A stretch of 36,615 bases of DNA from positions 1 to 36,615 of the IMG/VR virus record IMGVR_UViG_3300025128_000141. One strand, written 5' to 3'. The notes beneath the pieces were generated by a model, which was given only the letters and a program-made list of their open reading frames with translations, had not been told where the DNA came from and searched no databases. Of this stretch, positions 5,476 through 32,527 are shown in pieces. The stretch is from a virus. Numbering within the stretch: position 1 is the first letter of the stretch; each line of letters starts with the position of its first letter. The position numbers and the translations under genes were made by a program.

Positions 5476-5503
5476 ATTATGATGATTATTAACGTTAAGT
5501 CAA
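5476..5503 (-). promoter_or_regulatory. Early minus-strand promoter
   Basis: On the minus strand TTGACT (5503-5498), 16 bases and CATAAT (5481-5476) precede the SSB-like gene. The 10-bp palindrome TTAACGTTAA (5489-5498) fills the start of the spacer next to the -35, an ideal place for repression. Confidence 0.6.
5489..5498. promoter_or_regulatory. Candidate operator TTAACGTTAA
   Basis: A perfect 10-bp palindrome lies in the divergent control region between the SSB-like gene and the Cro-like gene. The extended form TAACGTTAAGTCAAT recurs almost unchanged at 13109-13122 in the promoter of the resolvase-like gene. Proposed binding site of the Cro-like protein encoded next to it. Confidence 0.5.
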
Positions 5504-5511
5504 TACAATAG

Positions 5512-5540
5512 TTGACTTTAATTAAGTTATTTTATAGTAT
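5512..5540 (+). promoter_or_regulatory. Promoter for the Cro-like gene
   Basis: TTGACT at 5512-5517 is followed by TATAGT at 5533-5538 (15-base spacer) or TAGTAT at 5535-5540 (17-base spacer). A GAGG-type ribosome site at 5554-5557 precedes ATG 5566. It is back to back with the minus early promoter, the classic arrangement of a phage switch region. Confidence 0.5.
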
Positions 5541-5565
5541 ATGTTTATTAACATGAGGTAACATT

Positions 5566-5784
5566 ATGAGTGAATTATACGAAATAGCTAAAGAGCGCAA
5601 GATAGAGATTGTGTCAAAATATGGTGGCAGAAATTTAGCTAGGATCTTGAACATCAGCCACCCTGCTGTGTCTAAGTGGGAAGTTATACCACCATTGAGA
5701 GCTTATCAGATTGCACACTTGGGCGATTATGACTTGGAGTACATGAGGCCAGATCTAATTGAGGCATTGTCAATAAACACATAG
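5566..5784 (+). CDS. Cro-like helix-turn-helix repressor
   Basis: The 72-residue protein has one helix-turn-helix. Helix 2 is NLARILNI at 23-30 and the recognition helix is HPAVSKWEVI at 32-41, the A-x-S-K-W pattern of Cro and YdaS proteins. It is nearly the same size as lambda Cro. It is divergently transcribed from the minus early operon and precedes the replication genes. No CI-type partner or integrase is present, so it is probably a timing switch in a lytic programme rather than a lysogeny regulator. Likely targets are the GTTAA repeats in the five control regions. Confidence 0.85.
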   Translation: MSELYEIAKERKIEIVSKYGGRNLARILNISHPAVSKWEVIPPLRAYQIAHLGDYDLEYMRPDLIEALSINT

Positions 5785-5822
5785 ATTTCAATGACTTATG
5801 TGTATGGCACTGCTATTGATCT

Positions 5823-5863
5823 GCTATAATTTTGCTATGTTTTTGCCAATAGCAAAGTATAGC
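5823..5863. other. Strong imperfect hairpin between cro and the replication genes
   Basis: GCTATA (5823-5828) pairs with TATAGC (5858-5863), and TTTGCTAT (5831-5838) pairs with ATAGCAAA (5849-5856). That gives 14 base pairs with one small internal loop and a 10-base loop. No T-run follows, so it is not a standard terminator. The left arm also contains TGCTATAAT (5822-5830), an extended -10 match. It could be an attenuator, a small RNA or a processing site. Confidence 0.5.
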
Positions 5864-5921
5864 TCTTCAACTGCACCTGCAACTACTAACAAGATAGTAA
5901 TACATACAATACATAAAACGC

Positions 5922-5949
5922 TTGACATTGGTTAACTGATGATTAAAAT
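5922..5949 (+). promoter_or_regulatory. Strong promoter for the replication operon
   Basis: A perfect TTGACA (5922-5927), 16-base spacer and TAAAAT (5944-5949) lie 20 bases before ATG 5969. The spacer contains GTTAAC (5931-5936), and further GTTAA copies lie between the -10 and the start codon, so repressor binding would block polymerase directly. Confidence 0.65.
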
Positions 5950-5966
5950 CGTTAATCGAGGTTAAG
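5931..5966 (+). promoter_or_regulatory. Phased GTTAA operator or iteron array
   Basis: GTTAA occurs at 5931, 5951 and 5961, with GATTAA at 5941: four related elements at 10-base steps (one shifted by a base), all facing one side of the helix. They overlap the replication promoter spacer, the -10 and the ribosome site of the first gene (CGAGG at 5957-5961). They could be Cro operators or, because replication genes follow, iterons of an origin. Confidence 0.5.
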
Positions 5967-5968
5967 AT

Positions 5969-6340
5969 ATGAGAAAAAGATACAATGACGAGCAATCGCC
6001 AGCGTTTCAATTTTACGCGAACGATTGGATCAGCGACACAAATAGACTAAACATGTCATTAGACGAGCAAGGTATATACATATTATTGTATTGCCACTGC
6101 TGGCGTGTCTACAAACTTCCACACGACAACAAAGTATTAGCAAAAATTTGCAATACAACTAGCGGTGTTATGAAACGTGCATGGCCCAAGATGGCACATT
6201 TATTTTACGTAGAAGATGGTTACATACATTGTGTGCAAGCAGAAGAAGAACGTGAGCGACAAACACAGAACAGATTGAAGAAACAAAAAGCAGGTAAAAA
6301 AGGCGCAGAAGTAAGGTGGGGTGATGACAGATCAGATTAA
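5969..6340 (+). CDS. DUF1376 (YdaU-like) replication-region protein
   Basis: The 123-residue protein opens with SPAFQFYANDWISDTNRL, then MSLDEQGIYILLYCHCW, the hallmark of DUF1376. That family lies in phage replication modules and often forms the N-terminal part of initiator proteins, probably a winged helix. Here the domain stands alone, and its basic C-terminal tail (KKQKAGKKGAEVRWGDD) stops where family members often continue into a second domain. It is the first gene of the plus replication operon, and its end overlaps the primase gene by 17 bases. Confidence 0.85.
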   Translation: MRKRYNDEQSPAFQFYANDWISDTNRLNMSLDEQGIYILLYCHCWRVYKLPHDNKVLAKICNTTSGVMKRAWPKMAHLFYVEDGYIHCVQAEEERERQTQNRLKKQKAGKKGAEVRWGDDRSD

Positions 6341-7169
6341 ACAATACTCTAGGTTTCTAAATAGTTTCGGCACACATCATAGTTTCCAGACTTTTGGCGA
6401 TAAAGGACTAGACAAAAGATTAATAAAGCAACTGCATGGCACGATTGACGAGCATGTAGACAAGTTGCAGGATCTAAACAAAAAAGGTGCTGGTGTATTT
6501 TTTACAGTAAACCGTACAGATCTGCATGGCAGGACGACAAAGAATATAAAGTCTGTACGTGCAGTGTTTATAGATTTAGACGGTACGCCATTGCCTACAA
6601 GATTTGAGTTACAGCCAAATTTGATTGTCAACACATCTCCAGATAAATATCATTGTTACTGGTTAGTTGATGACATGCCATTGCAAAGTTTTGTACTGTA
6701 TCAAGAGGCGTTAGCATTAAAATTTAACAGCGATCCAGTCGTGAAAGACTTGCCAAGAGTTATGAGGGTAGCTGGTTTTTATCACAACAAACACAAACCA
6801 TATCCTATAAAAATTGTAGAGGAATATAATACAAACAAACCATACCATACAGATGAAATACGTGATAAACTAAAATTAGAACGTCCAAAAAGTAAAATGA
6901 TTATCGGTAGAATGTTACCGAGAACCACAACTTACAAGCGCAACGGTATCATAAACGGAGCGTCAAAAGGCAACAGACACGAAACACTAGTCAGAATGTT
7001 AATCTCTATGAGATTACGTGGCGAAACACTAGAGTATGCAAGGAACGAAGCTATTGCATTTGCAAACGCGTGTGATCCACCAGAGGACATACGTGAAGTC
7101 ATGTTCCAACTAAACGATATATGGAGTAGATATGAAGCTAAGAGAATACCAACTAAAAGCAATGAGTGA
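6324..7169 (+). CDS. RepB/AEP-type DNA primase
   Basis: From ATG 6324 the protein has 281 residues. It matches the RepB-like archaeo-eukaryotic primase fold: motif I is D84-L-D86 (AVFIDLDG), motif II is TSPDKYHCYW with H110, and LPRVMRVAGFYHNK provides the later strand and loop. It should make primers for host polymerase on phage DNA. The C-terminal 100 residues look helical (GASKGNRHETLVRMLISMRL), like a primase C-terminal domain. An in-frame GTG one codon earlier is possible, but ATG 6324 fits the AAGGTGG ribosome site better. It overlaps the helicase gene by 38 bases. Confidence 0.85.
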   Translation: MTDQIKQYSRFLNSFGTHHSFQTFGDKGLDKRLIKQLHGTIDEHVDKLQDLNKKGAGVFFTVNRTDLHGRTTKNIKSVRAVFIDLDGTPLPTRFELQPNLIVNTSPDKYHCYWLVDDMPLQSFVLYQEALALKFNSDPVVKDLPRVMRVAGFYHNKHKPYPIKIVEEYNTNKPYHTDEIRDKLKLERPKSKMIIGRMLPRTTTYKRNGIINGASKGNRHETLVRMLISMRLRGETLEYARNEAIAFANACDPPEDIREVMFQLNDIWSRYEAKRIPTKSNE

Positions 7170-8616
7170 TGTGGCCGATAAAAGCTGGAAGCACAAAAAA
7201 ATATTATTGGTAGCACCGACTGGCAGCGGTAAAACTGTGATAGCTAGTGCGCTGATACAAGTAGCGTTAGAAAAGGGACACAAGTGTTTGTTCGTTGCGC
7301 ATAGACGAGAGTTGATTATGCAGTGCAGTAAAAAGCTACACGACTTCGATGTTAATCATGGCGTAATTATGGCAGGAAAATCAGCAACACCCAGAGCAAG
7401 GACACAAGTTGCCAGCATACAAACATTTACAATACGGAGTAAAAAAGAAGATTTTATAAAACCAGAGGCTACACTTATTATACTTGACGAGGCACACAGA
7501 AGTGCCAGCAAGTCATTTCAAGATCTTATGGATTTGTATCCCAACGCTTTGTTTATAGGTTTGACAGCGACACCATGTCGCAATGACAGTAAAGGACTCG
7601 GATCTATTTACACAGAAATGGTTGAGTGCAGTAACATAAAAGAGCTGACAGAACTTGGTTTTCTTGTGCCTACAAAAATTATTGCGCCAACACTACCAGA
7701 CCTGCAAGGACTACGTATGTTAGCTGGCGATTACGAAAACCGTGGATTAGACAAGAGAGTGAACACTCCTAAGTTAGTAGGAGATCTTGTTACACACTGG
7801 TTACGGCACGCTAAAAATAGAACGACAGTGGTCTTTGCAGTTTCTATAGCGCATAGTAAATACATAGCTAAAATATTTAATGAGAACGGTATACCAGCTG
7901 GGCATATTGATGGAGAGATGGACGAGTTAGAAAGAGAACGCGTCTTGCATGATCTAAAAGTGGGCCATATAAAAGTATTGTCTAACTGCCAAGTGCTTAC
8001 AGAGGGTTGGGATATGCCCATAGTGTCTTGTGTTGTGTTGGCTAGACCGACAAAATCTTATGGTATGTATTTACAAATGGTAGGCAGGAGTTTAAGACCA
8101 GCAGAGGATAAAGACGATACATTAATATTAGATCATGCTGGCTGTGTTTACGAACATGGTTTCCCAGCGGATACGCCAGAATGGGAGCTTACAAAAAGTA
8201 AAATAAAAAGATCTCAAGAGCCACGTAATAGACCGATAGAAAAACAACCTTTCACATGTGTAAAGTGTAACACTGTATATCAGCCAAGCAGGTATAATAG
8301 AGAATGTCCTAACTGTGGCTATGTATTAAATGATATTGATAAAAAAGTTTTAGTAAAACAAGGCAGGCTAGTAGAGGTTGAGAGTATTGAAGTAAAGTTA
8401 GTAAACAAAAAAGACTGGTACGCGCAACTGCTGTACTTTGCAAAACAAAAAGGTTACAAAGACGGTTGGGCAAGTCATACATTTAGGAAAAAGTTTGGTC
8501 ATTTTCCACACTCAAAAAAAGTTTTTCCAAAACCTATCAGCAAAGAAGTTGAAGGTTACATTAAACACTTGTATATAAAAAACGCTAAAGGAGGGAACTA
8601 TGCAGGATACGAATAA
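7132..8616 (+). CDS. SF2 DNA helicase (SSL2/UvsW-like) with C-terminal zinc finger
   Basis: The 494-residue protein has the full superfamily 2 motif set: REYQ (Q motif) near residue 4, Walker A PTGSGKT at 29-35, DEAH at 119-122, LTATP, and QMVGRSLRP near residue 317. A C-x2-C...C-x2-C zinc ribbon (FTCVKCNT and ECPNCG) lies at about 376-396. An extra domain of about 100 residues follows, ending with KDGWASHTFRKKFG. It is likely to open or remodel DNA for primase and host replisome loading, or to drive branch migration. The start has GGAG about 8 bases upstream. It is co-transcribed and overlapping with the primase. Confidence 0.93.
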   Translation: MKLREYQLKAMSDVADKSWKHKKILLVAPTGSGKTVIASALIQVALEKGHKCLFVAHRRELIMQCSKKLHDFDVNHGVIMAGKSATPRARTQVASIQTFTIRSKKEDFIKPEATLIILDEAHRSASKSFQDLMDLYPNALFIGLTATPCRNDSKGLGSIYTEMVECSNIKELTELGFLVPTKIIAPTLPDLQGLRMLAGDYENRGLDKRVNTPKLVGDLVTHWLRHAKNRTTVVFAVSIAHSKYIAKIFNENGIPAGHIDGEMDELERERVLHDLKVGHIKVLSNCQVLTEGWDMPIVSCVVLARPTKSYGMYLQMVGRSLRPAEDKDDTLILDHAGCVYEHGFPADTPEWELTKSKIKRSQEPRNRPIEKQPFTCVKCNTVYQPSRYNRECPNCGYVLNDIDKKVLVKQGRLVEVESIEVKLVNKKDWYAQLLYFAKQKGYKDGWASHTFRKKFGHFPHSKKVFPKPISKEVEGYIKHLYIKNAKGGNYAGYE

Positions 8617-8938
8617 GGAAAAGATCCTACACGGATTACGTGAGATAGGGATTAAACATGCAGAGGCAAAAAAACAACTGACTACGTTGGAACATGGCAG
8701 GCAGATATTGCTGGCAGATCTGATGAAAAAATATCTTTTGCAAGGAGAAAAGACAGTTGCAGGGCAAGATCGTGAGGCTAGGGCAGACGATAAATATAAG
8801 AAACACATTGAAGCACTAGGTATTGCTATAGAAAACGAACTGAAATGGGCGTGGGAAAAAAAGATTGTTGAGATCAATTTTGAAAAATGGAAAACTGAAA
8901 TGATAAACAACACTATTGAAAGAAAAAACTATGGCTAG
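8600..8938 (+). CDS. Small helical protein of the replication operon
   Basis: The 112-residue protein has a strong AAAGGAGGG ribosome site before ATG 8600. It is almost wholly alpha-helical with heptad-like spacing and a conserved-looking segment REARADDKYKKHIEALGIAIE. I recall similar short proteins in phage recombination and replication regions but cannot name a function. It overlaps the helicase end by 17 bases and the HNH gene by 8 bases, so it is surely part of the same translation unit. Confidence 0.78.
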   Translation: MQDTNKEKILHGLREIGIKHAEAKKQLTTLEHGRQILLADLMKKYLLQGEKTVAGQDREARADDKYKKHIEALGIAIENELKWAWEKKIVEINFEKWKTEMINNTIERKNYG

Positions 8939-9308
8939 TAAAACCAAAACAAAGCAAGAGCGTGAGCATTTGCAGGCTGTCGCAGATCTGGGGTGTATTG
9001 CCTGCGCCAAGTTAGGGATCTATGACAGTCCTGCCGAGATACATCATATAAAAGGTCAATTTAGAATGGGACGAAAAGCTAGTCATTTTGAAACTATACC
9101 TTTATGCCCTGCACATCACAGAAACGGTGGCACTTCTTACCATGTAAACCCAAGAGAGTTTACTGAATACTTTGGATCACAAGAAGAGTTACTGGAAGAA
9201 GTGTTAGACTGGTTAAACGTAGACGGTTGTCCGTGTGGCTGCTTGGAGGCAACAAACGACAAAGATATAAATAACGTGTATCTGCGCAATCGTCTGTTTT
9301 TCATATAA
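8931..9308 (+). CDS. Ref-like HNH endonuclease (RecA-dependent nuclease family)
   Basis: From ATG 8931 the protein has 125 residues (a TTG at 8916 would add five). Motifs in order: C-x2-C (LGCIACAK), an AEIHHIKG pair of His, then GRKASHFETIPLCPAHHRNG with a second Cys and the HH metal site, and HVNPREFTEYFG. This is the beta-beta-alpha metal nuclease of P1 Ref and DUF968 proteins, which cut DNA at RecA-bound displacement loops. It fits the recombination set of this phage. It is the last gene before the bidirectional hairpin that ends the operon. Confidence 0.85.
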   Translation: MASKTKTKQEREHLQAVADLGCIACAKLGIYDSPAEIHHIKGQFRMGRKASHFETIPLCPAHHRNGGTSYHVNPREFTEYFGSQEELLEEVLDWLNVDGCPCGCLEATNDKDINNVYLRNRLFFI

Positions 9309-9346
9309 AAAAGGGGGTATAGTTATATCATAAAAACTATTCCCCC
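9307..9346 (-). terminator. Intrinsic terminator of the minus-strand module
   Basis: GGGGGTATAGTT (9313-9324) pairs with AACTATTCCCCC (9335-9346): 12 bases with one T-T mismatch and a 10-base loop. On the minus strand the stem is followed by six T (9312-9307), giving a textbook rho-independent terminator for the operon 9371-12373. In the plus direction it lacks a T-run but begins 5 bases after the HNH stop codon, so it may also slow plus transcription. Confidence 0.8.
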
Positions 9347-9370
9347 CTACTGTATGGCTCTTAAAACGCG

Positions 9371-9505
9371 TTATTTATCTAATAATTTCATCAATTTTTC
9401 AAAAGTTTGATAAATATGCTCTATATCTTCCTCTGTAACTGCTGATATATCATCAAGGCAACAAGCTAAAGATATATCTATTTCATTTATTATTTCTTGC
9501 ATCAT
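9371..9505 (-). CDS. Small acidic protein (44 aa), last gene of the minus module
   Basis: The 44-codon frame starts ATGATG at 9505 behind an AAGGGTGG ribosome site, 11 bases after the previous stop. The protein is acidic and helical (MMQEIINEIDISL and EEDIEHIYQTFEKLMKLLDK) with a Cys pair in the middle. The terminator lies just beyond its stop. No family recognised. Length, ribosome site and position make it a likely real gene. Confidence 0.65.
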   Translation of the reverse strand: MMQEIINEIDISLACCLDDISAVTEEDIEHIYQTFEKLMKLLDK

Positions 9506-9516
9506 TTAGGCCACCC

Positions 9517-9738
9517 TTAATGTTTCCAACACTCTGGTGGCTCATCTGGCAAATGCGACTGCACCATGAGAAACGCCACGCCAGCGTTAGGTGCAAATTC
9601 ATACCGTTGCCAATCAGTAAAACCATCAGAAATCTGCATTGAGATCCAAATACAAAATTCATCATTTGACATTGCTTTTATCATTTGTTTTTTTGTATCT
9701 ATTACGTGTATGTAGTTTTTTTCTTTTTTGCTAACCAT
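9517..9738 (-). CDS. Unknown small protein (73 aa), minus module
   Basis: It starts with an ATG overlapping the end of the upstream gene, with GGAGGG provided by that gene's last codons. Visible features are a basic N-terminus (MVSKKEKNYIHVIDTKKQM) and a C-terminal aromatic and acidic part (SHLPDEPPECWKH). No transmembrane segment and no recognised family. The organisation suggests translational coupling within the minus-strand operon. Confidence 0.72.
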   Translation of the reverse strand: MVSKKEKNYIHVIDTKKQMIKAMSNDEFCIWISMQISDGFTDWQRYEFAPNAGVAFLMVQSHLPDEPPECWKH

Positions 9739-10327
9739 TGTTTTCCCTCCATGTTTTGCAAATTATATCACCGTACCCATTATTTTGATCTTTAACCAGT
9801 GTCCTGCCTAAATCCATCTCAAACAACGTTGTCAAGTCGTCTACAACGGTGTCATCTTTGCCACCGATATGCCATGACGTTATTTGTTGTACTTCCAGTC
9901 CGTCTAGTCCTAAATAACTTACACCGTCCTTCCAGTTGTAAATACTAAAGACGCGACCATCTTGGAATTTGCCATACCAATGAACATCACTTTTATTATC
10001 ATCACTGCCCCACCATCTACGGACGTTGTGTTTTTGCATTACCCATAAAACATTATCGTATGACACTTTAAAAATGCCCTGCAACGAAATACCGTGCGCC
10101 TCACTTCTATTCTCTAATGATTGTATATCGTGTAAGCGACAATAATAATCAGCTTGCTGGTGCGCCTCATACATGTCATTAAATGGTTTTGTATACTTCC
10201 TAATTAAATTTATAAGATCATCAGCTGGGTATTTTTTGTACTGCCTTTTTAATGCCCATATCAAGTGGATTAATTTTTCAGCCTCAAGTTCAAGCTGTTT
10301 TTGATCGTTATCATTTTGCACTAACAT
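9731..10327 (-). CDS. Unknown 198-aa protein, minus module
   Basis: I choose ATG 10327 (MLVQNDNDQKQ) because GGAGGG lies 6 bases ahead. An ATG at 10339 would place the ribosome site inside the gene. The N-terminal half is helical and charged. The C-terminal half has a beta-rich part (NVRRWWGSDDNKSD, then WYGKFQDGRVFSIYNWKDG and YLGLDGLEVQQITSWHIGG) that looks like a compact binding domain. No family recognised. A short region with GTTAA repeats upstream (10344-10359) suggests an extra internal promoter under repressor control. Confidence 0.75.
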   Translation of the reverse strand: MLVQNDNDQKQLELEAEKLIHLIWALKRQYKKYPADDLINLIRKYTKPFNDMYEAHQQADYYCRLHDIQSLENRSEAHGISLQGIFKVSYDNVLWVMQKHNVRRWWGSDDNKSDVHWYGKFQDGRVFSIYNWKDGVSYLGLDGLEVQQITSWHIGGKDDTVVDDLTTLFEMDLGRTLVKDQNNGYGDIICKTWRENNG

Positions 10328-10343
10328 TTTGCCCTCCATAGTT

Positions 10344-10359
10344 GTTAATATTAGTTAAG
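10344..10359 (+). promoter_or_regulatory. Paired GTTAA operator upstream of the 198-aa gene
   Basis: GTTAA occurs at 10344 and 10354, exactly 10 bases apart, in the 52-base gap before the minus gene starting at 10327. On the minus strand a weak promoter is possible (TTGTTA, 16 bases, TATTAA). The same 10-base period occurs at 5951/5961 and 12390/12400. Confidence 0.4.
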
Positions 10360-10379
10360 GTTATTGTAACAAATAATAC

Positions 10380-10793
10380 TCAATTCACAAGCATTTCTTC
10401 AAATAGTTTTAGATCTACTTTTTCATACATGTCTATGCTTGTTATTTTGTAGATCCAGTCGCTTGGCATATCGTCACAAAATCCCATTTGATCGCCTAAC
10501 AGCTCACAAAATATATCTGCCATGTTTATGTCGTTTTTCATCACGTAATTAAATTCAAAATTGTAGATCTCATCAACGAGCGCTTGCTTCTGGTTGTACA
10601 TGTTATTATTTGGCTCATCATCTAACCATTTTTTAAATGCACTGTAGCCGATATGCACTGCAACGTTGCAAGTGCGATCAAAACACTCCACGACAAAACA
10701 ATAAGTACCATTGTTATATGTTGGATAATGATATGGATTTTCATGCACAATCTCATTATCTATAATTGTAAAATTTTCTTTATACATTGTCAT
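10380..10793 (-). CDS. Unknown 137-aa acidic protein, minus module
   Basis: ATG 10793 follows GAGGAGGT by 6 bases. That ribosome site is built from the last codons of the upstream gene, which overlaps by 14 bases. The protein is acidic with many Tyr, Asn and Cys (TYCFVVECFDRTCNVAVHIG; later MADIFCELLGDQMGFCDDMP). No transmembrane segment and no family recognised. The soluble acidic type is common among phage inhibitors, but that is only a general resemblance. Confidence 0.75.
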   Translation of the reverse strand: MTMYKENFTIIDNEIVHENPYHYPTYNNGTYCFVVECFDRTCNVAVHIGYSAFKKWLDDEPNNNMYNQKQALVDEIYNFEFNYVMKNDINMADIFCELLGDQMGFCDDMPSDWIYKITSIDMYEKVDLKLFEEMLVN

Positions 10794-11076
10794 CTTCTAC
10801 CTCCTCAAATACATGTATGCTATCAAATTCCGTGTACTCATATTCATCAGAAAAATCTCCTATTGATATTATCTGACCATCAAGATCTGGCATGCCAATA
10901 TATTCACACCGTTCTTTGTAACTCATTTGCTCAAAATCTAAAGCAGTTTGTAAGTCCATAAACATTGAACCAAAATCTTGGATAATATTTATATCTGACT
11001 CATCAAAAACTACCCCTCTTAAATGTGGGTAGCGTCCGTCAACGTACTTTTCTTTTACTCTATATTTTCTAGCCAT
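10780..11076 (-). CDS. Unknown 98-aa acidic protein, minus module
   Basis: Start chosen at ATG 11076 (MARKYRVKEKYVDGRYPHL) because AGGAG lies 8 bases upstream. A longer frame from 11145 has no ribosome site and would overlap the upstream gene. The first 20 residues are basic and the remainder strongly acidic, ending VFEEVEDDNV. That split of charge resembles DNA-mimic or protein-binding phage factors, but no family is recognised. Confidence 0.73.
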   Translation of the reverse strand: MARKYRVKEKYVDGRYPHLRGVVFDESDINIIQDFGSMFMDLQTALDFEQMSYKERCEYIGMPDLDGQIISIGDFSDEYEYTEFDSIHVFEEVEDDNV

Positions 11077-11086
11077 TTTTTTACTC

Positions 11087-11482
11087 CTATATTTGATAAA
11101 ATTTAGATTTTGTATTTTCTTGATCCCAGTCAAAAAGATTGTCAATTTCTCTACGCCCCTCCTCTAAGCACGCGCCTCCATCAAATAACCATTGGAAATC
11201 GCCGATAGAGTAATCTTTTGTAGGATTGATAATCAAGTAACCATGAGTACCAATAACATATCTGCGATCAGCACACGCGACCTCTATTTTATCCCAGTCA
11301 AAATCGTCATAATTTTGTTGCTCCCATAACAAGTATTTTGGGACGTTAGACGGCTGACGATATATATTAATTGTCCAGCCTTTATATTGCCTTTTCACTA
11401 CACAACGCGCGCCACGATCTAAAAACATACTTTGCTCCACGTCAGTCGGATTACCGTTTATTTGTATACCTGTACTAGTCAT
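11087..11482 (-). CDS. Unknown 131-aa protein, minus module
   Basis: The start at 11482 overlaps the previous stop as TAATG with GGAGG just upstream; a frame start at 11500 would bypass this site. The protein has a likely beta-rich centre (GWTINIYRQPSNVPKYLLWE) and aromatic-rich strands (RYVIGTHGYLIINPT, then YSIGDFQWLFDGG). No motif or family recognised. Confidence 0.73.
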   Translation of the reverse strand: MTSTGIQINGNPTDVEQSMFLDRGARCVVKRQYKGWTINIYRQPSNVPKYLLWEQQNYDDFDWDKIEVACADRRYVIGTHGYLIINPTKDYSIGDFQWLFDGGACLEEGRREIDNLFDWDQENTKSKFYQI

Positions 11483-11694
11483 TAGCGTGCCTCCACCCAA
11501 GTGCCAGCCTTATGTTGCTTGATACAACGCCTAGCCTTTTTCAAATTGGTAAAATAATCTATCACCTCATAGTAAGGCGCGTCCCATTTATGATCGTCCC
11601 AAGTTTCCACAATGCTGTAAGGATACTTTTTATAAAGATCTGGCGTAAGTGGATTACTTACATCATATTTTAATACTACTAACATTCTAGCCAT
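11482..11694 (-). CDS. Unknown 70-aa protein, minus module
   Basis: GGAGG lies 6 bases ahead of ATG 11694. The protein opens with a beta strand (MARMLVVLKYDVS) and has a YYEVIDYFTNLKKARRCIKQ segment, looking like a small alpha/beta domain. Coupled to the next gene by TAATG. No family recognised. A 67-base gap upstream holds nothing clear beyond its ribosome site. Confidence 0.72.
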   Translation of the reverse strand: MARMLVVLKYDVSNPLTPDLYKKYPYSIVETWDDHKWDAPYYEVIDYFTNLKKARRCIKQHKAGTWVEAR

Positions 11695-11761
11695 GTAACA
11701 CCTCCATTCTATTGATTAATGACTATGAATACGCCCCATATAGAGGCGCATTGTATAGGCA

Positions 11762-12247
11762 TTAAGTAGCTTGTATGTCAGATACGGCATATGCCCAAGA
11801 CTGACGATCTTCAGCAGCTGACACCCTGTAATAGTGGTGCCAGTCGCGAGCCAGCATATCGGTTAGGATTGTATATACATCACAATCCTTATTGCGAATA
11901 AGACCAACATTGCCAGCAATGTAATCAGTTTCGCCATAAGTCTGAAACCAGATCCATGAGCTAAAGAAGTTAGCGCCTAGACCGTTCAGCTTACCCATTT
12001 CATTAATGACTAAATCGCCATACTTAGTAGGGACAATCTCAATATTTCCCCCCACTATGGACTGCAATTCGTCAAGTGGAAACTCACCATCTAACTGAAA
12101 TTCTGGATATAAAATCTTGGTAGTGCAAAAATCGTCATACTGATAATAATGCTCATCAGTAACGATACCACTACCATTATTATGGATACCAGTCATTTCA
12201 TAATGATCGTAAGTAAGTTTTAATATATTAGATATTTCCTTATTCAT
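11762..12247 (-). CDS. DUF3846-like protein, minus module
   Basis: The 161-residue protein has a central segment LQSIVGGNIEIVPTKYGD, then LVINEMGKLNGLGANFF and TDYIAGNVGLI. This matches the DUF3846 pattern (VGG-x-I-E, LV-x-NE-x-GKL, N, I-x-G-x-V), a small domain widespread in phages and mobile elements with no known activity. Flanks of about 60 residues on both sides are unrelated to the domain. GGAGG of the upstream small gene serves as ribosome site, and the ATG follows its stop by 3 bases. Confidence 0.78.
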   Translation of the reverse strand: MNKEISNILKLTYDHYEMTGIHNNGSGIVTDEHYYQYDDFCTTKILYPEFQLDGEFPLDELQSIVGGNIEIVPTKYGDLVINEMGKLNGLGANFFSSWIWFQTYGETDYIAGNVGLIRNKDCDVYTILTDMLARDWHHYYRVSAAEDRQSWAYAVSDIQAT

Positions 12248-12250
12248 AAT

Positions 12251-12373
12251 TTACCTCCATGATTGAATTAGATCTAATGTAATAAAGCCAAAGGCAACGA
12301 ACCAAAGTGCAATCATAATGACTGCGCCCCAGAACGCCAGCCTACTAACTAAGTTACTGTATAATTTAAACAT
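12251..12373 (-). CDS. Tiny single-span membrane protein (40 aa), first gene of the minus module
   Basis: ATG 12373 has GGAGG about 7 bases upstream; an in-frame ATG at 12388 would contain that site and is less likely. The protein starts MFKLYSNLVSRLAFWG and continues with a hydrophobic helix at about residues 13-33, then a short polar tail. The stop is 3 bases before the DUF3846-like gene. As the promoter-proximal product of the operon it would be made early and in quantity. Function unknown. Confidence 0.7.
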   Translation of the reverse strand: MFKLYSNLVSRLAFWGAVIMIALWFVAFGFITLDLIQSWR

Positions 12374-12389
12374 AGCTAAAGCCTCCATT

Positions 12390-12455
12390 GTTAACGATAG
12401 TTAATGTTATACCAGCATACAAGTTAACAATCAATTAAAATATATTGAAGTTAAC
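12390..12455. promoter_or_regulatory. Cluster of GTTAAC operator candidates between the minus module and terS
   Basis: GTTAAC occurs at 12390, 12423 and 12450, and GTTAAT at 12400, 10 bases after the first. They surround and overlap the minus-strand promoter. Binding here would control the minus module and possibly block read-through toward terS. Confidence 0.5.
12406..12434 (-). promoter_or_regulatory. Promoter of the minus-strand module
   Basis: On the minus strand TTGATT (12434-12429), a 17-base spacer and TATAAC (12411-12406) lie 33 bases before the first gene start at 12373. GTTAAC at 12423-12428 abuts the -35 inside the spacer. I see no convincing sigma-70 promoter on the plus strand for terS in this gap. 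Confidence 0.6.
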
Positions 12456-12480
12456 ACACTTTAGGTAGTAAGGTAGTTAT

Positions 12481-12879
12481 ATGACTGGTAAAACCTTAAC
12501 TGATAAGCAAAGAGCCTTTGTAGAAAACTTTAGTAAAACTGGCAACGCAACTAAGTCAGCGATCGCGTCAGGGTATAGTCCTGCCACTGCTGAACAGCAA
12601 GGCTATGAGTTAAAGAAGAAGCTTGCCACTGAGATAGATCACGCCACAAAACAGGTACTAGCTTCGTCAGTGCCACTGGCAATAGATAAGCTACAAAGTC
12701 TGATAGTAGATGATAAGGTTAACGCGTCAGTAAAGTTGGGGGCAATCAACTCAATACTTGATAGAACTGGATACCAAACTATACATAAGGTAGAGGACGT
12801 TACTAAGCAAAAGAGTGATGATGAACTACAGCAAGAACTAAACCACCTCCTCCAGAATATCAACACCACTGAACACTGA
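12481..12879 (+). CDS. terS: Terminase small subunit (Terminase_2 family)
   Basis: The 132-residue protein opens LTDKQRAFVENFSKTGNATK, then SAIASGYSPATAEQQGYELKKK, the typical N-terminal helix-turn-helix of Terminase_2 small subunits, which recognise packaging-site DNA and stimulate the large subunit. A helical oligomerisation region follows (KLQSLIVDDKVNASVKLGAINSIL is its core). An AAGG-type ribosome site lies about 10 bases before the ATG. It is the first gene of the late plus operon and is separated from the large subunit by a GC-rich gap and one small nuclease gene. Confidence 0.9.
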   Translation: MTGKTLTDKQRAFVENFSKTGNATKSAIASGYSPATAEQQGYELKKKLATEIDHATKQVLASSVPLAIDKLQSLIVDDKVNASVKLGAINSILDRTGYQTIHKVEDVTKQKSDDELQQELNHLLQNINTTEH

Positions 12880-12892
12880 TCTAAATGAGTGC

Positions 12893-13020
12893 GATAATGG
12901 TCGCGCCCACACACCCACACGCGCCCAGCAAATTGCCTCCCAGTTGCCCCAGCGCGCGTACATATATATAGACCACCCCCCCCTAATATATATTGTCGGC
13001 ACGGTACACCCCCCAAAGTA
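12893..13020. other. GC-rich, C-skewed island; candidate packaging (cos/pac) site
   Basis: Bases 12901-12960 are 68% G+C by my count (41 of 60), twice the genome level, and strongly C-rich on this strand. Then follow two similar blocks of alternating TA with a C-run: TACATATATATAGACC ending in eight C (12966-12973), and TAATATATATTGTCGG ending in six C (13009-13014). The region lies between terS and the nuclease-terL pair, where phage packaging sites are often found. It encodes no convincing protein. Confidence 0.4.
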
Positions 13021-13096
13021 CAGAATCTTCTATAAAGATAATGGATCAATCCGTACAGCGGTGGGCCTTTTTTAACATTAACATTTGTTAACGTGC

Positions 13097-13125
13097 TTGA
13101 CATGGCTATAACGTTAAGTTAATCT
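13097..13125 (+). promoter_or_regulatory. Promoter for the resolvase-like/terL genes
   Basis: TTGACA (13097-13102), 17 bases, then TAATCT (13120-13125). GTTAAG and GTTAAT follow each other at 13113 and 13118, and GTTAAC lies at 13087. An overlapping alternative is TTGTTA (13085-13090), 16 bases, TATAAC (13107-13112). With the first choice transcription would begin at about 13132, the start codon itself. Confidence 0.5.
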
Positions 13126-13131
13126 ACCAAT

Positions 13132-13419
13132 ATGGCTGATAAAGCGTGGAAACAACGAGAGCGGAAGGTTGCAGAGTTTTTTGGTGGCACAAGAACACCT
13201 TTATCTGGTGGTAATGGCAAAATTACACGCGCTGATGTCATACATGACGACTTATTTATAGAATGTAAGCTACGCGCCAAGCATACTGCTGTTACTTTGT
13301 GGGATGATACAAAACAATTAGCTGATTTAGAAAACAAAACACCTGTAATATGTCTTTGTGAAAAGAATCGCAAAGGTTTTTGGGTGATGGTACACAGTGA
13401 TGACTTGGAAAAACTATGA
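13132..13419 (+). CDS. PD-(D/E)XK nuclease, Holliday-junction-resolvase-like
   Basis: The 95-residue protein has KQRERKVAEFFGGTRTPLSG near the N-terminus, then ADVIHDDLFIECK, which supplies the D and E-x-K of a PD-(D/E)XK core, followed by a helix (LWDDTKQLADLE) and strands. Such stand-alone small nucleases, placed directly before terL, may resolve branched DNA before packaging. The ATG has no clear ribosome site and may be read from a leaderless transcript. Its end overlaps terL as ATGA. Confidence 0.8.
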   Translation: MADKAWKQRERKVAEFFGGTRTPLSGGNGKITRADVIHDDLFIECKLRAKHTAVTLWDDTKQLADLENKTPVICLCEKNRKGFWVMVHSDDLEKL

Positions 13420-18600: not shown

Positions 18601-18699
18601 CAAGTCCTTGCGGATAACTTGCACTGTGGGTATGATGCCTTAAAATCCGTATGACAGTGCGTTATCTGTAAGGTTTCCCTGTGTTACAGGATAAAAACC
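18601..18699 (+). ncRNA. Structured RNA leader of the major capsid gene
   Basis: GATAAC-TT-GCACTGT (18613-18627) pairs perfectly, apart from the TT bulge, with ACAGTGC-GTTATC (18654-18666), making a 13-pair stem with a 26-base apical part. Just after it CCTGT (18678-18682) pairs with ACAGG (18686-18690), flanked by GGTTT (18672-18676) and AAACC (18695-18699). An alternative stem of GCAAGT (18599-18604) with ACTTGC (18617-18622) would exclude the first, hinting at two states. No known RNA family recognised. Confidence 0.5.
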
Positions 18700-18730
18700 G
18701 TTTTAACTTTAACTTAACAGGAGAACTATT

Positions 18731-31500: not shown

Positions 31501-32527
31501 TTTTAATGCAATACTAAGAGGTTGGGAAGGCGATTACAGATCATTTAGAGCAAATCCTATGAACTGGATGTTTAAACAATCAATAATAATGGGGCCGAAA
31601 TTATTAGAAATTGCAGCTAGATTTGGATTGTTCGGTGCAGCAATATACGCATACTCTAAAAGCATAAGTCAATATGACCAAGATAATTTTATAAATATAC
31701 CTATAGCTGATTTTACAGATAAAGAAAACTCAAACGTAGAGTATGGAAAATTAGTTTATCTAAGAATACCATTAGATCCAACTGGTAGGTTATTCAATGG
31801 TTTATTAAATCAAACAGCAGACGCAATAGCAGGTGTACCAGAAAGAGGATCTGTAGGATCAAGAATTATTGATGGTTTGGTCAATGACACATTTCCAACA
31901 TTTAATCCAATAATAACTGGTGTTCAAGATTTAGTACAATTTTTATCAGGAAATAATGTGTATGATGAATATTCAAACAGTGTTGCAATAGACCAGAATG
32001 TTATGAGAAGAGGTGGTAGAGAAAAAAATATTGAGATTTTAAGATATTTCTATAATAACTATGGCCCATCAACTTTGTATAGACTAGAAACAAATAACGA
32101 AGATGAAATACTAACAGAACTAGAAGAACTATTAAGTTATCCAGTCGGTCAACAGTTAGGTAAATTTATAAGAGTAGGTGATTATCCAATAGCAGATGAT
32201 ATTAGAGAAATGAAAATATTAGCTGACGAGTTTAGAAATGATGTAGACTTGTATGCACAAAGAGCAATTAAAAAAATACTTTTAGGACAAGAAAACAAAA
32301 TAACAGAAAAAGAAAACCAAGCATTGTACGTTAAAAATCCAGATTTAGCTAACAACAAAGGAATACTAAGAGAGTTAATATCAGAAGCACAATTACCAGA
32401 TTTTGTTTTTGATATAGTAAGTGAAACAGATAAAAAAGTACGAGAAAATTTGTGGCACATATACATTGAAGAACATGCAGCAGATCCAGATAAGGCAAGA
32501 AGGTTACGAGAATATTTTGAAAATTAA
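25580..32527 (+). CDS. Giant polyvalent ejection protein: transglycosylase plus metalloprotease
   Basis: At 2315 residues it is far larger than T7 gp16 (1318). In order: acidic N-terminus; lytic-transglycosylase-like domain at about 247-390, with AAYESNN (E257) and KGGLFQIPDEEM; a Gly-rich hydrophobic segment around 500-535 (GGALTGAAIGGTITVSTGG); a zinc metalloprotease motif HEIGH at 1103-1107 with a possible third ligand in RELMAEFMMAFL (E1318 or E1322); and a long C-terminal region with TEINPTFWVTQTLQDVQR near 1790 and VLANGVFTFFNAILRGWEGD near 1970, typical of large polyvalent proteins of podoviruses. It starts 2 bases after the previous stop. Probably injected with the DNA to cross the wall and membrane. 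Confidence 0.85.
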   Translation: MPLRLSVTDLKRAGFSDDVIMTHIEDMRPTLREANFSEKEIDDYYGIVRIDKPLEPPTQNTSLLATNNTSKDIEVDTKKSHPLDSTTLTSKEAQIASGKTNEELPIAGEGILNLDTDKVKTETEAIANAEIEDPKFFEHNQAAYENRRTDIQDLEAKAQAERLKEGSVFLDELSDAQVDRYYKDGGNLEIDGKKIEVIDRVKKYNVDGAPQTEILNTFDTTGTYTKMGLMKIEQNLDATDIQLINLNEGLSFIAAYESNNANIRSRNDDKGGLFQIPDEEMPELLDLIANDFSAIDASWAAPQWFQLGYSHKDATKLPVEFQRALALKKLTKDPQATTLLKEAMDGNEQAWIDLVNNYYNADGLTVPEASERLESYFSKFNTSDYRFVNGAKAFFADRDDTSWAGWVTRVTEDKLGKTFVRNLGGQGHVNVFGSGGGDLSIDGLSKIWATQIDEYGYTPQEAYINVMMLQNHNFSLDLIEELRRFTEGGDWKYGAGGALTGAAIGGTITVSTGGFGLILLPSFIIGGGYGAIETMRTRYGDMIMNGEANTPDEFWDTMISFQTAKEYAKNTTVGTASAATGFYLHKKGLKTAAIAGEISTFVGLQSLLSQTMPTKEEFAQVSAMVFGFAGATKGMGKMVEYYKKYGIKPADFYRMSKDPNFREEIYNTESDLFSPIDNINDQMIQIAENKTNIILTPNPKHELNTVVETSASGTEVGRIVDVRKDDFGSTILKLDKDGEEVYVKEAETSPALKDNDYEIEIDANEFVTIQRSVLAGFKEKQNNKQFNDDIIEYRTDKENLPLNNELLDGEFSKFGTEKNGIATRSIVGSHKMFVDKKTYPELADVIKRNTTKATKYNTKSEFLSKNFKNINNKKSTLVDEVFAVKRNGYSRFNFDAMILREKQRYFAIPLNIYESLKTKPKQTVRFQFVNNVLVVTNDLDNKIVAAVRTQQITGPLKYQADNYYRNYVRNNDKVYTTNAYANKSDGQDDFLQMPDEIPINENLSELPNMPKFNPHANMLYNSAKGLTTFDLIELSRSLMENPIIMGKTGRAYGYFQSLADSINRETGEIVRTASSDKQREVMRIVIQREIQANPKLLTATIAHEIGHLVDYIGRNREDYTLSRGNILGRLVALRQFLNEFIDPDGKASSGLTKEEILEIRKDAEAYAAKEIKRTEEVLSSKYGITPEILRKVYTDARIKELIDPDIYGELVKLSNELKVAIGRDAIKNMVNPYVDKIIAKIKGEKTNTKTDKEFEARAMEIFVKNVENAIRERGLVRATDVRKELIRLTERWHPYDREKSMTTPRGRAYVKYRESSRELMAEFMMAFLTRPRWTMANAPKASELFVKYMSERKEVADIYNEIQADINARAATGGSTIIANRIIKHFITADKRLAEQTQNLWQRSKGKGLSHQFFIDYVDTSAWMYKSAYKLARSHKAIDRKTGKFIKGSRAINQNFLEAINEIERYTYKNSVQQYYTDSMVNKVLRPLTNLDSSHNRYSLALMLLLKNLGTSAQRANVANPYGLWTDIQKITKLATNDDITISGQEGVIISKKDIDEYVNEGRTPFDLYQDYRKVHPDLGKLADRFAEVRDEIMRPLLQESGAFSVEELTDMFRNYSYITFNPIDKALVNLEATAGFTLAAASFNRGTKGDITDIVNPLDATMEKDLMLVGMLIRNSAVIKTIRALVKNKSELETMDSAMMAKKGFPDFKDRIITFLKKDKNGKPIDVPKELRRGTEIISWREKGKIQYARINEYAKAAIDKDPYRAINELEFGLGGSMAIYRYIWTEINPTFWVTQTLQDVQRTYKNIPEIKLLGKHGFLKYMLKNMPRAYRLSKGHYDDVTRDMMTQGFLISNADGYRGQAGGKRLLESYKRGDLTNDQYDLELFLQKMDEKEFIKTQNNISTFLKRVSDVAWTAERLTKIAAYDLVKDLQKEGKITYTPDEVIQIARQRGGGPHLAVKGKKAVLANGVFTFFNAILRGWEGDYRSFRANPMNWMFKQSIIMGPKLLEIAARFGLFGAAIYAYSKSISQYDQDNFINIPIADFTDKENSNVEYGKLVYLRIPLDPTGRLFNGLLNQTADAIAGVPERGSVGSRIIDGLVNDTFPTFNPIITGVQDLVQFLSGNNVYDEYSNSVAIDQNVMRRGGREKNIEILRYFYNNYGPSTLYRLETNNEDEILTELEELLSYPVGQQLGKFIRVGDYPIADDIREMKILADEFRNDVDLYAQRAIKKILLGQENKITEKENQALYVKNPDLANNKGILRELISEAQLPDFVFDIVSETDKKVRENLWHIYIEEHAADPDKARRLREYFEN

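Follow-up and report, generated by a model that had tools for sequence, protein, structure and literature searches.

Comparison with described phage regulators

For N15, a close relative of PY54 and phiKO2, PMC4997575 describes a Cro fold like that of P22, and it also cites a published study of a code between the Cro recognition helix and the operator half-site. In the temperate switch of phiKO2, Cro is reported to act at a single operator, OR3 (PMC4997575, PMC4488713). A different kind of regulator, the host protein CtrA, controls some alphaproteobacterial phages via TTAA-N7-TTAA sites in intergenic regions, as PMC9437464 reports. Here, we analyzed IMG/VR virus record IMGVR_UViG_3300025128_000141, a virus contig of 36,615 bp (the window, at its full length), in which a P22-type Cro of 72 amino acids (aa) is encoded at positions 5566-5784 on the plus strand and in which GTTAA elements recur between the genes. 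From the arrangement and conservation of these elements, we infer that this lone Cro, for which no CI partner was found, probably represses its own promoter together with the replication, leftward and terminase/late promoters by binding a dyad as a dimer.

A sequence-only reading of the window had proposed the GTTAA elements as a candidate regulon of the 72-aa protein and had called their design unusual for Cro, taking the 17-bp operators of lambda for comparison. Lambda is the wrong relative for a P22-type Cro, and the design is not unusual because P22 operators have the same geometry: the palindromes upstream of P22 cro, ATTTAAG-TGTT-CTTTAAT and AGTTAAG-TCAT-CTTAAAT, have TTAA-like cores 10 bp apart around N4, like those of the window, and the P22 palindrome ACTAAAG-ATTC-CTTTAGT starts inside TTGACT. 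The inner half-site base is C in the window phage whereas it is G in P22, and the recognition helices are SHPAVSKW and SDAAVSQW, respectively. Unlike P22, the window clade (13 records) had no HTH_3 CI-type partner or tyrosine integrase that we could find, and its operators lie at several promoters, including those of terminase and late genes; the single operator reported for phiKO2 Cro (PMC4997575, PMC4488713) sets that phage apart in the same way. The Cro proteins of Klebsiella phage ST101-KPC2phi6.3 and Pantoea phage AH07 resemble ours in the SHPAV helix, in which a basic residue precedes W. Their palindromes, ATGTAAC-CAAT-GTTACAT and ATGTAAC-CAAT-GTTACCT, share the inner TAAC/GTTA with ours but differ in the outer bases, and both phages have a CI or LexA-like repressor annotated beside cro, which was not found in the window phage. 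The CtrA phage promoters described in PMC9437464 also have TTAA pairs in intergenic DNA; however, CtrA is a host regulator with an 11-bp spacing, in contrast with the 10-bp spacing and the conserved inner C and G found here. Palindromic operators with half-site cores 10 bp apart, as in the P22 type, are present in the clade, the DUF1376 site departing from this form. Of the lambdoid layout with CI, Cro and integrase, neither a CI-type (HTH_3) repressor next to cro nor a tyrosine integrase (PF00589) was found in the 13 records. The divergent neighbour of cro instead encodes a 205-aa protein of phrog_862, the function of which is unknown.

The P22-type Cro and its clade

The 72-aa protein matched the Pfam family P22_Cro (PF14549) at 45.7 bits (cut-off 30.2, E 5.5e-12), and the sole PDB sequence match of its family profile at E 0.1 or better was 1RZS, which is P22 Cro. 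The recognition helix is ISHPAVSKW, comprising residues 30-38. An AlphaFold2 (AF2) model based on only 7 sequences was all helical (H3-19, H21-27, H32-36 and H43-50) with a predicted local distance difference test (pLDDT) score of 72.8, the other four models scoring 46-52. The closest named phage for terminase, capsid and Cro is Pelagibacter phage EXVC032P Baldr, with identities of 76.5%, 77.6% and 68.3%, respectively. The Baldr record (L016, OQ414636.1) carries locus tags with another name, EXVC031PHodr, and has no annotation for terS or for the gene that diverges from cro.

Relatives were gathered with three baits, namely Cro, the resolvase-like gene at 13132 and the primase. Orthologous upstream regions were excised and then dereplicated, a region being dropped if more than 40% of its 8-mers were common with a region already kept, and the gene list of the window was curated by hand from the open reading frame (ORF) list and two short ORFs read by eye. 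In the profile search, P22_Cro was over its cut-off in 13/13 clade genomes (the window, Baldr and 11 others) and in 0/8 other pelagiphages. None of the 13 clade records matched HTH_3 (PF01381), other repressor families not having been searched, or the tyrosine integrase family (PF00589), serine integrases likewise not having been searched. Considering that neither an HTH_3 repressor nor a tyrosine integrase was found, the protein would be a lone lytic Cro with a role in timing rather than one half of a lysis-lysogeny switch.

The HPAVSKW helix was counted on loci that had been found by the primase rather than by Cro, and it was present in 66 of the 70 Cro proteins. A second count, from which the window copies L002-L004 and the P22 locus were removed beforehand, gave 103/103, but HPAVSKW was the search seed of that set, so the count is biased and the primase-based one is less so. 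Of the 80 primase loci, those with the primase match within the first 1.2 kb of the locus were set aside; among the 71 loci with at least 1.2 kb upstream, Cro was absent only in the uninformative L169, so that no clear Cro-less member of the clade was obtained. A scan of cellular genome contigs gave no Cro relatives. The recognition helix is nearly invariant where the half-site is constant. A diverged Cro (L200, 1961-2180) has the helix SPPAVSKWDL and TTGAC-ATAT-CTTAA at its promoter, with an inner C in place of G; this single case may reflect an altered specificity.

Enrichment of GTTAA between the genes

The intergenic DNA of the window (1,847 bp) contains 29 GTTAA/TTAAC against 8.9 expected, a number that none of 500 shuffles reached (maximum 20), which corresponds to 15.7 GTTAA per kb in intergenic and 1.67 per kb in coding DNA. 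Over the whole window, the motif is rarer than expected (87 vs 129, 100 shuffles). The spaced form GTTAAN5GTTAA occurs 4 times against 0.31 expected, and 0/100 shuffles reached 4. The GTTAA-type sites quoted in the sequence-only reading were all present where it had placed them, and the intergenic enrichment against shuffles that it had called for was obtained. Their overlap with predicted promoters is visible by inspection, although the -10 boxes come from a best-of-five-spacings search in A+T-rich DNA and are weak evidence singly. Two pelagiphages without P22_Cro, HTVC010P and HTVC028P, which were recorded from HTCC1062 like Baldr, exhibited no intergenic enrichment (11 vs 17.1 and 4 vs 6.9, respectively). 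Rfam gave nothing at gathering scores in the window.

Spacing within the window is less telling. Intergenic TTAA cores are 10 bp apart in 4 cases (0.25 expected) and 11 bp apart in 3 (0.26 expected), so in the window alone the 10-bp spacing does not stand out over 11 bp. Among the four 10-bp pairs, those at 12391 and 13078 are perfect inverted repeats of the form TTAAC-N4-GTTAA, whereas those at 5952 and 10345 are direct repeats only. The 10-bp pairs at 5512-5525 and 5922-5935, which the sequence-only reading had not named as pairs, have the TTGAC of a -35 box as their left half.

Geometry of the proposed operators across relatives

Among 64 dereplicated upstream regions from five gene groups, TTAAC-N4-GTTAA was found in 24, while any other gap from 0 to 15 was found in at most 4. 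In a larger set, the palindrome was present in 13/14 late operon regions (0.00 expected), 11/18 terS regions, 4/26 cro regions and 1/32 DUF1376 regions; the late count excludes L064, L065 and L067, distant resolvase-like relatives whose upstream DNA lacks the motif, and becomes 13/17 when they are included. The late regions among the 64 were counted without these three as well. The spacing that was ambiguous in the window is distinct in its relatives, since cores 10 bp apart outnumber those 11 bp apart in the late (12 vs 0 of 13 regions), terS (11 vs 2 of 16), DUF1376 (7 vs 2 of 12) and cro (5 vs 1 of 12) families. The same promoters thus carry the GTTAA motif in related phages, which bears out the conservation that the regulon proposal had required.

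The logo of 36 core pairs is RTTAAC-N-TA-N-GTTAAY, in which the inner C is conserved in 59/72 half-sites and the outer G in only 25/72. Given the dominance of the inverted N4 form and the much stronger conservation of the inner base, the unit of the motif is a dyad. Its resemblance to a direct repeat follows from the TTAA core being self-complementary and the outer base often being G: 13/13 late core pairs and 11/12 terS core pairs are readable as inverted, and 17 of these 24 are also readable as direct. The 10-bp direct repeats of the sequence-only reading are therefore mostly inverted half-sites, and its description holds at the DUF1376 promoter, where true direct pairs outnumber inverted ones by 11 to 1.

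At least two perfect palindromes were present in 13/13 clade records (here Baldr and 12 others, the partial record G010 included and the window, which also has two, omitted) but in 0/8 other pelagiphages, and the backwards control gave 0 in all 21. In 14/14 clade genomes, a terS homologue lies between two perfect palindromes that are 0.68 to 0.98 kb apart; in Baldr, a circular record, and in G003, taken to be circular, the distance was computed across the record ends, and the terS match of G010 is only 35% identical.

Fusion of the proposed half-site with the -35 box at cro

The proposed cro operator of the window (5512-5525, plus strand) is TTGAC-TTTA-ATTAA, in which the -35 box is the left half-site, and the -10 box TATAGT follows at 5533-5538. 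TTGAC, read as the -35 hexamer, is one base off the TTAAC half-site. The arrangement TTGAC-N4-RTTAA was found in 24/26 dereplicated cro promoters with the window included (23/25 without it) against 0.05 expected and at most 1 in 400 shuffles, whereas a gap of N3 or N5 was found in 0/26. The right half is GTTAA in 21 of the 24 and ATTAA in 3, and -10-like hexamers agreeing at 3 to 6 of 6 positions lie 15 to 18 bp downstream of TTGAC (best of five spacings). In 6/26 of these regions, Baldr included, an extra small ORF lies between the promoter and cro, and the stretch upstream of this ORF was used. When the primase-found, Cro-bearing loci were searched anywhere and on either strand, TTGAC-N4-RTTAA was present in 68/70 and the backwards pattern in 2/70, these loci not being dereplicated.

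Other proposed operators in the window

The -35 box is the left half-site also at the operator of the DUF1376/primase/helicase genes (5922-5935, plus strand), TTGAC-ATTG-GTTAA, with the -10 box TAAAAT at 5944-5949; the direct repeat GTTAA-TCGAG-GTTAA (5951-5965) lies between this -10 box and the DUF1376 start codon. On the other side of cro, two abutting half-sites, TTAACGTTAA (5489-5498), occupy the leftward promoter of the 205-aa gene, the minus-strand -35 box of which, TTGACT, is the reverse complement of 5498-5503. This exact TTAACGTTAA arrangement was seen only in the nearest relatives. A GTTAA pair with 10-bp spacing (10344-10358) lies just upstream of a leftward 202-aa gene, for which such a pair was present in 2/3 upstream regions examined.

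The first perfect palindrome, TTAAC-GATA-GTTAA (12391-12404), is in the leader of the leftward genes adjoining terS. It is followed by GTTAAC at 12423-12428, where the spacer of the leftward promoter begins (minus-strand -35 TTGATT and -10 TATAAC, by eye), and by GTTAAC at 12450-12455, overlapping the -35 region of the terS promoter (TTGAAG, by eye). The second, TTAAC-ATTT-GTTAA (13078-13091), lies upstream of the late operon, which comprises the resolvase-like gene, terL and structural genes, and GTTAAGTTAA (13113-13122, plus strand) provides downstream half-sites at the late promoter. In Baldr, the palindrome of this region is at 233. A further GTTAA downstream of the late palindrome was found in 13/13 regions having the palindrome.

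Proposed mechanism and alternatives

In the mechanism that we propose, the GTTAA elements would be half-sites of the phage's own Cro, with RTTAAC-N4-GTTAAY as the full operator; as in P22, a Cro dimer could read the two TTAA cores, one helical turn apart, on a single face of the DNA. At the cro promoter, and in some phages at the DUF1376 promoter as well, the left half-site and the -35 hexamer appear to have become one sequence during evolution, so that a dimer on the -35 box and spacer would exclude host RNA polymerase, leading to autorepression and to shut-off of the primase/helicase operon. The perfect palindromes, probably the tightest sites, would act from either side of terS, one within the leftward-gene leader and the other ahead of the late operon, where a perfect site with a downstream GTTAA could bind two dimers. 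Occlusion is the most likely mode of action, and the expected outcome would be autorepression with timed control of the replication, leftward, packaging and structural genes. The regulon proposal is supported by the intergenic enrichment, the conservation at promoters, the co-occurrence with P22_Cro and the near-invariant helix.

Several observations weigh against this mechanism. In Baldr, as annotated in the deposited record, GTTAA was not enriched overall (14 vs 12.8; 126/300 shuffles reached 14), in part perhaps because at least the unannotated terS and cro-divergent gene count as intergenic; its intergenic operators are nevertheless present (palindromes at 233 and 38928, and TTGACTTTTGTTAA at 31765), and a second TTGAC-N4-RTTAA, at 32459, is inside an annotated gene. 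The motifs are not exclusive to Cro-bearing phages, as 4/8 Cro-less pelagiphages have one TTAAC-N4-GTTAA each, that of HTVC010P between genes, and 2/8 other pelagiphages have one TTGAC-N4-RTTAA each; genome-wide, the latter has 25 matches in the 13 clade records vs 9 for its backwards form. The contrast in the presence of P22_Cro and palindromes follows one clade and is not independent genome by genome. Perfect palindromes are rare at cro and DUF1376, as counted above, and the -35 fusion occurs in only 8/32 dereplicated DUF1376 regions, the window included. At the latter promoter, the usual feature is a direct pair close to the start codon: of 18 core pairs with the 10-bp spacing, 11 can be read only as direct, 1 is inverted and 6 are neither, and a symmetric dimer should bind a direct repeat less well. 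The comparison of helices is consistent with a helix/half-site code, since two P22_Cro relatives with an AVCRW helix have an inner C whereas P22 (AVSQW) and one coliphage (SVSEW) have an inner G, but it comprises four comparators only; mEp390 (SVSGW) and a Labrenzia phage (AICQW) gave no operator, the former having no palindrome at threshold and the latter only two unlike ones. Finally, if Cro made early represses the late genes, something must release them, and no such step is visible in the data.

This last point would be explained by the main alternative, in which Cro is a dual regulator that represses its own and the replication promoters and activates the late operon from the perfect palindrome, which we regard as possible but unlikely. 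CI-type repressors activate from OR2, the palindrome present in 13/14 late regions lies upstream of the -35 box where that box is readable by eye, several late -35 boxes are weak (e.g., TTGAAC), and activation would account for late-gene switch-on. However, Cro proteins are known as repressors, the further GTTAA after the palindrome in all 13 late regions suits occlusion, TGAAC-N4-GTTAA overlaps a TTGAAC -35 box in 5/14 late regions, and in the window itself the -35 and -10 boxes of the late promoter cannot be assigned unambiguously.

Side-by-side binding of monomers to direct repeats, the mode first suggested for these sites, appears improbable. It would suit the direct-only pairs at 5952 and 10345 and the 11 of 18 pairs at DUF1376, but the bias toward the inner C over the outer G and the inverted reading of the late and terS families, even though most of these pairs can be read both ways, led us to reject it as the general mode. 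Still less credit can be given to GTTAA as a mere promoter element, that is, a spacer or extended -35 motif for host RNA polymerase: its fixed place after TTGAC at cro agrees with such a role, but the dyad with 10-bp spacing also occurs outside -35 boxes, within leaders and ahead of promoters, and GTTAA is unenriched in the intergenic DNA of HTVC010P and HTVC028P. That the sites belong to CtrA or another host regulator is highly improbable and was rejected, since, despite the TTAA pairs of CtrA-controlled phage intergenic regions (PMC9437464) and the three 11-bp pairs of the window, the 10-bp spacing dominates in the relatives whereas CtrA cores are 11 bp apart, the inner C and G flanks are conserved, and the two P22_Cro-less phages with the same recorded host as Baldr exhibit no enrichment.

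Returning to repression by a lone Cro, a rather unlikely extension that we raise tentatively is that this marine phage is strictly lytic and has the autorepressed protein as its master timer: early Cro would keep the terminase/late promoter down via its tightest operators, and as replication raises the number of operators, these would outrun the Cro pool and late genes would be released with DNA copy number, the palindrome pair flanking terS serving as the sensing element.

SAR11 phages are among the most abundant marine viruses, and among the matches listed in our literature search no paper dealt with transcription control in this pelagiphage clade. The Cro protein and the operator geometry are of a known kind, that of P22; as far as the matches listed in our searches show, three points are new: the proposed multi-promoter regulon that a lone Cro would control throughout a pelagiphage clade, the paired palindromes flanking terS, and the systematic fusion of -35 box and half-site at cro. 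In this clade, represented by the isolate Baldr with HTCC1062 as its recorded host, sequence is enough to name a regulator, an operator code and target promoters. If the proposed repression is true, a lytic phage would have retained Cro in the absence of CI to control timing, and the cro promoter would be a compact case of one sequence that is both -35 box and operator half-site.

Additional sequence features

The region upstream of the capsid gene was considered as a further member of the regulon and rejected, because its relatives are not clearly enriched (16 vs 11.1, shuffle maximum 21), a result that also counts against the proposed mechanism. Just before the capsid gene start, the window has three tandem TTAAC units, TTAACTTTAACTTAAC (18703-18718), which had made the region a promising candidate; among the relatives, only L017, the nearest one, showed the full set. 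In the conserved leader of the major capsid gene (18608-18700), a GGTTTCCC...GGAYAAA block is present in the window and in 11/11 relatives examined, Baldr included, but no such block was detected ahead of the capsid genes of HTVC010P and HTVC028P. The consensus fold of this leader is weak (-3.6 kcal/mol), and the block is possibly a regulatory leader.

Another conserved block, CAGCGNNGGG, lies at 13055-13070, just upstream of the late palindrome. It is exact in 10/14 dereplicated relatives, two of the other four being cut there, and in Baldr it lies near position 210; it may act in packaging (cos/pac) or as a terminator. In G001, an identical palindrome sequence occurs at 12 and 37125, near both ends of the record, a hint of genome circularity or of a terminal repeat. 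Positions 156-1406 of the window encode a 416-aa protein with a signal-peptide-like start and a long acidic repeat of EEIPEEI/EEMPEEI-like units.

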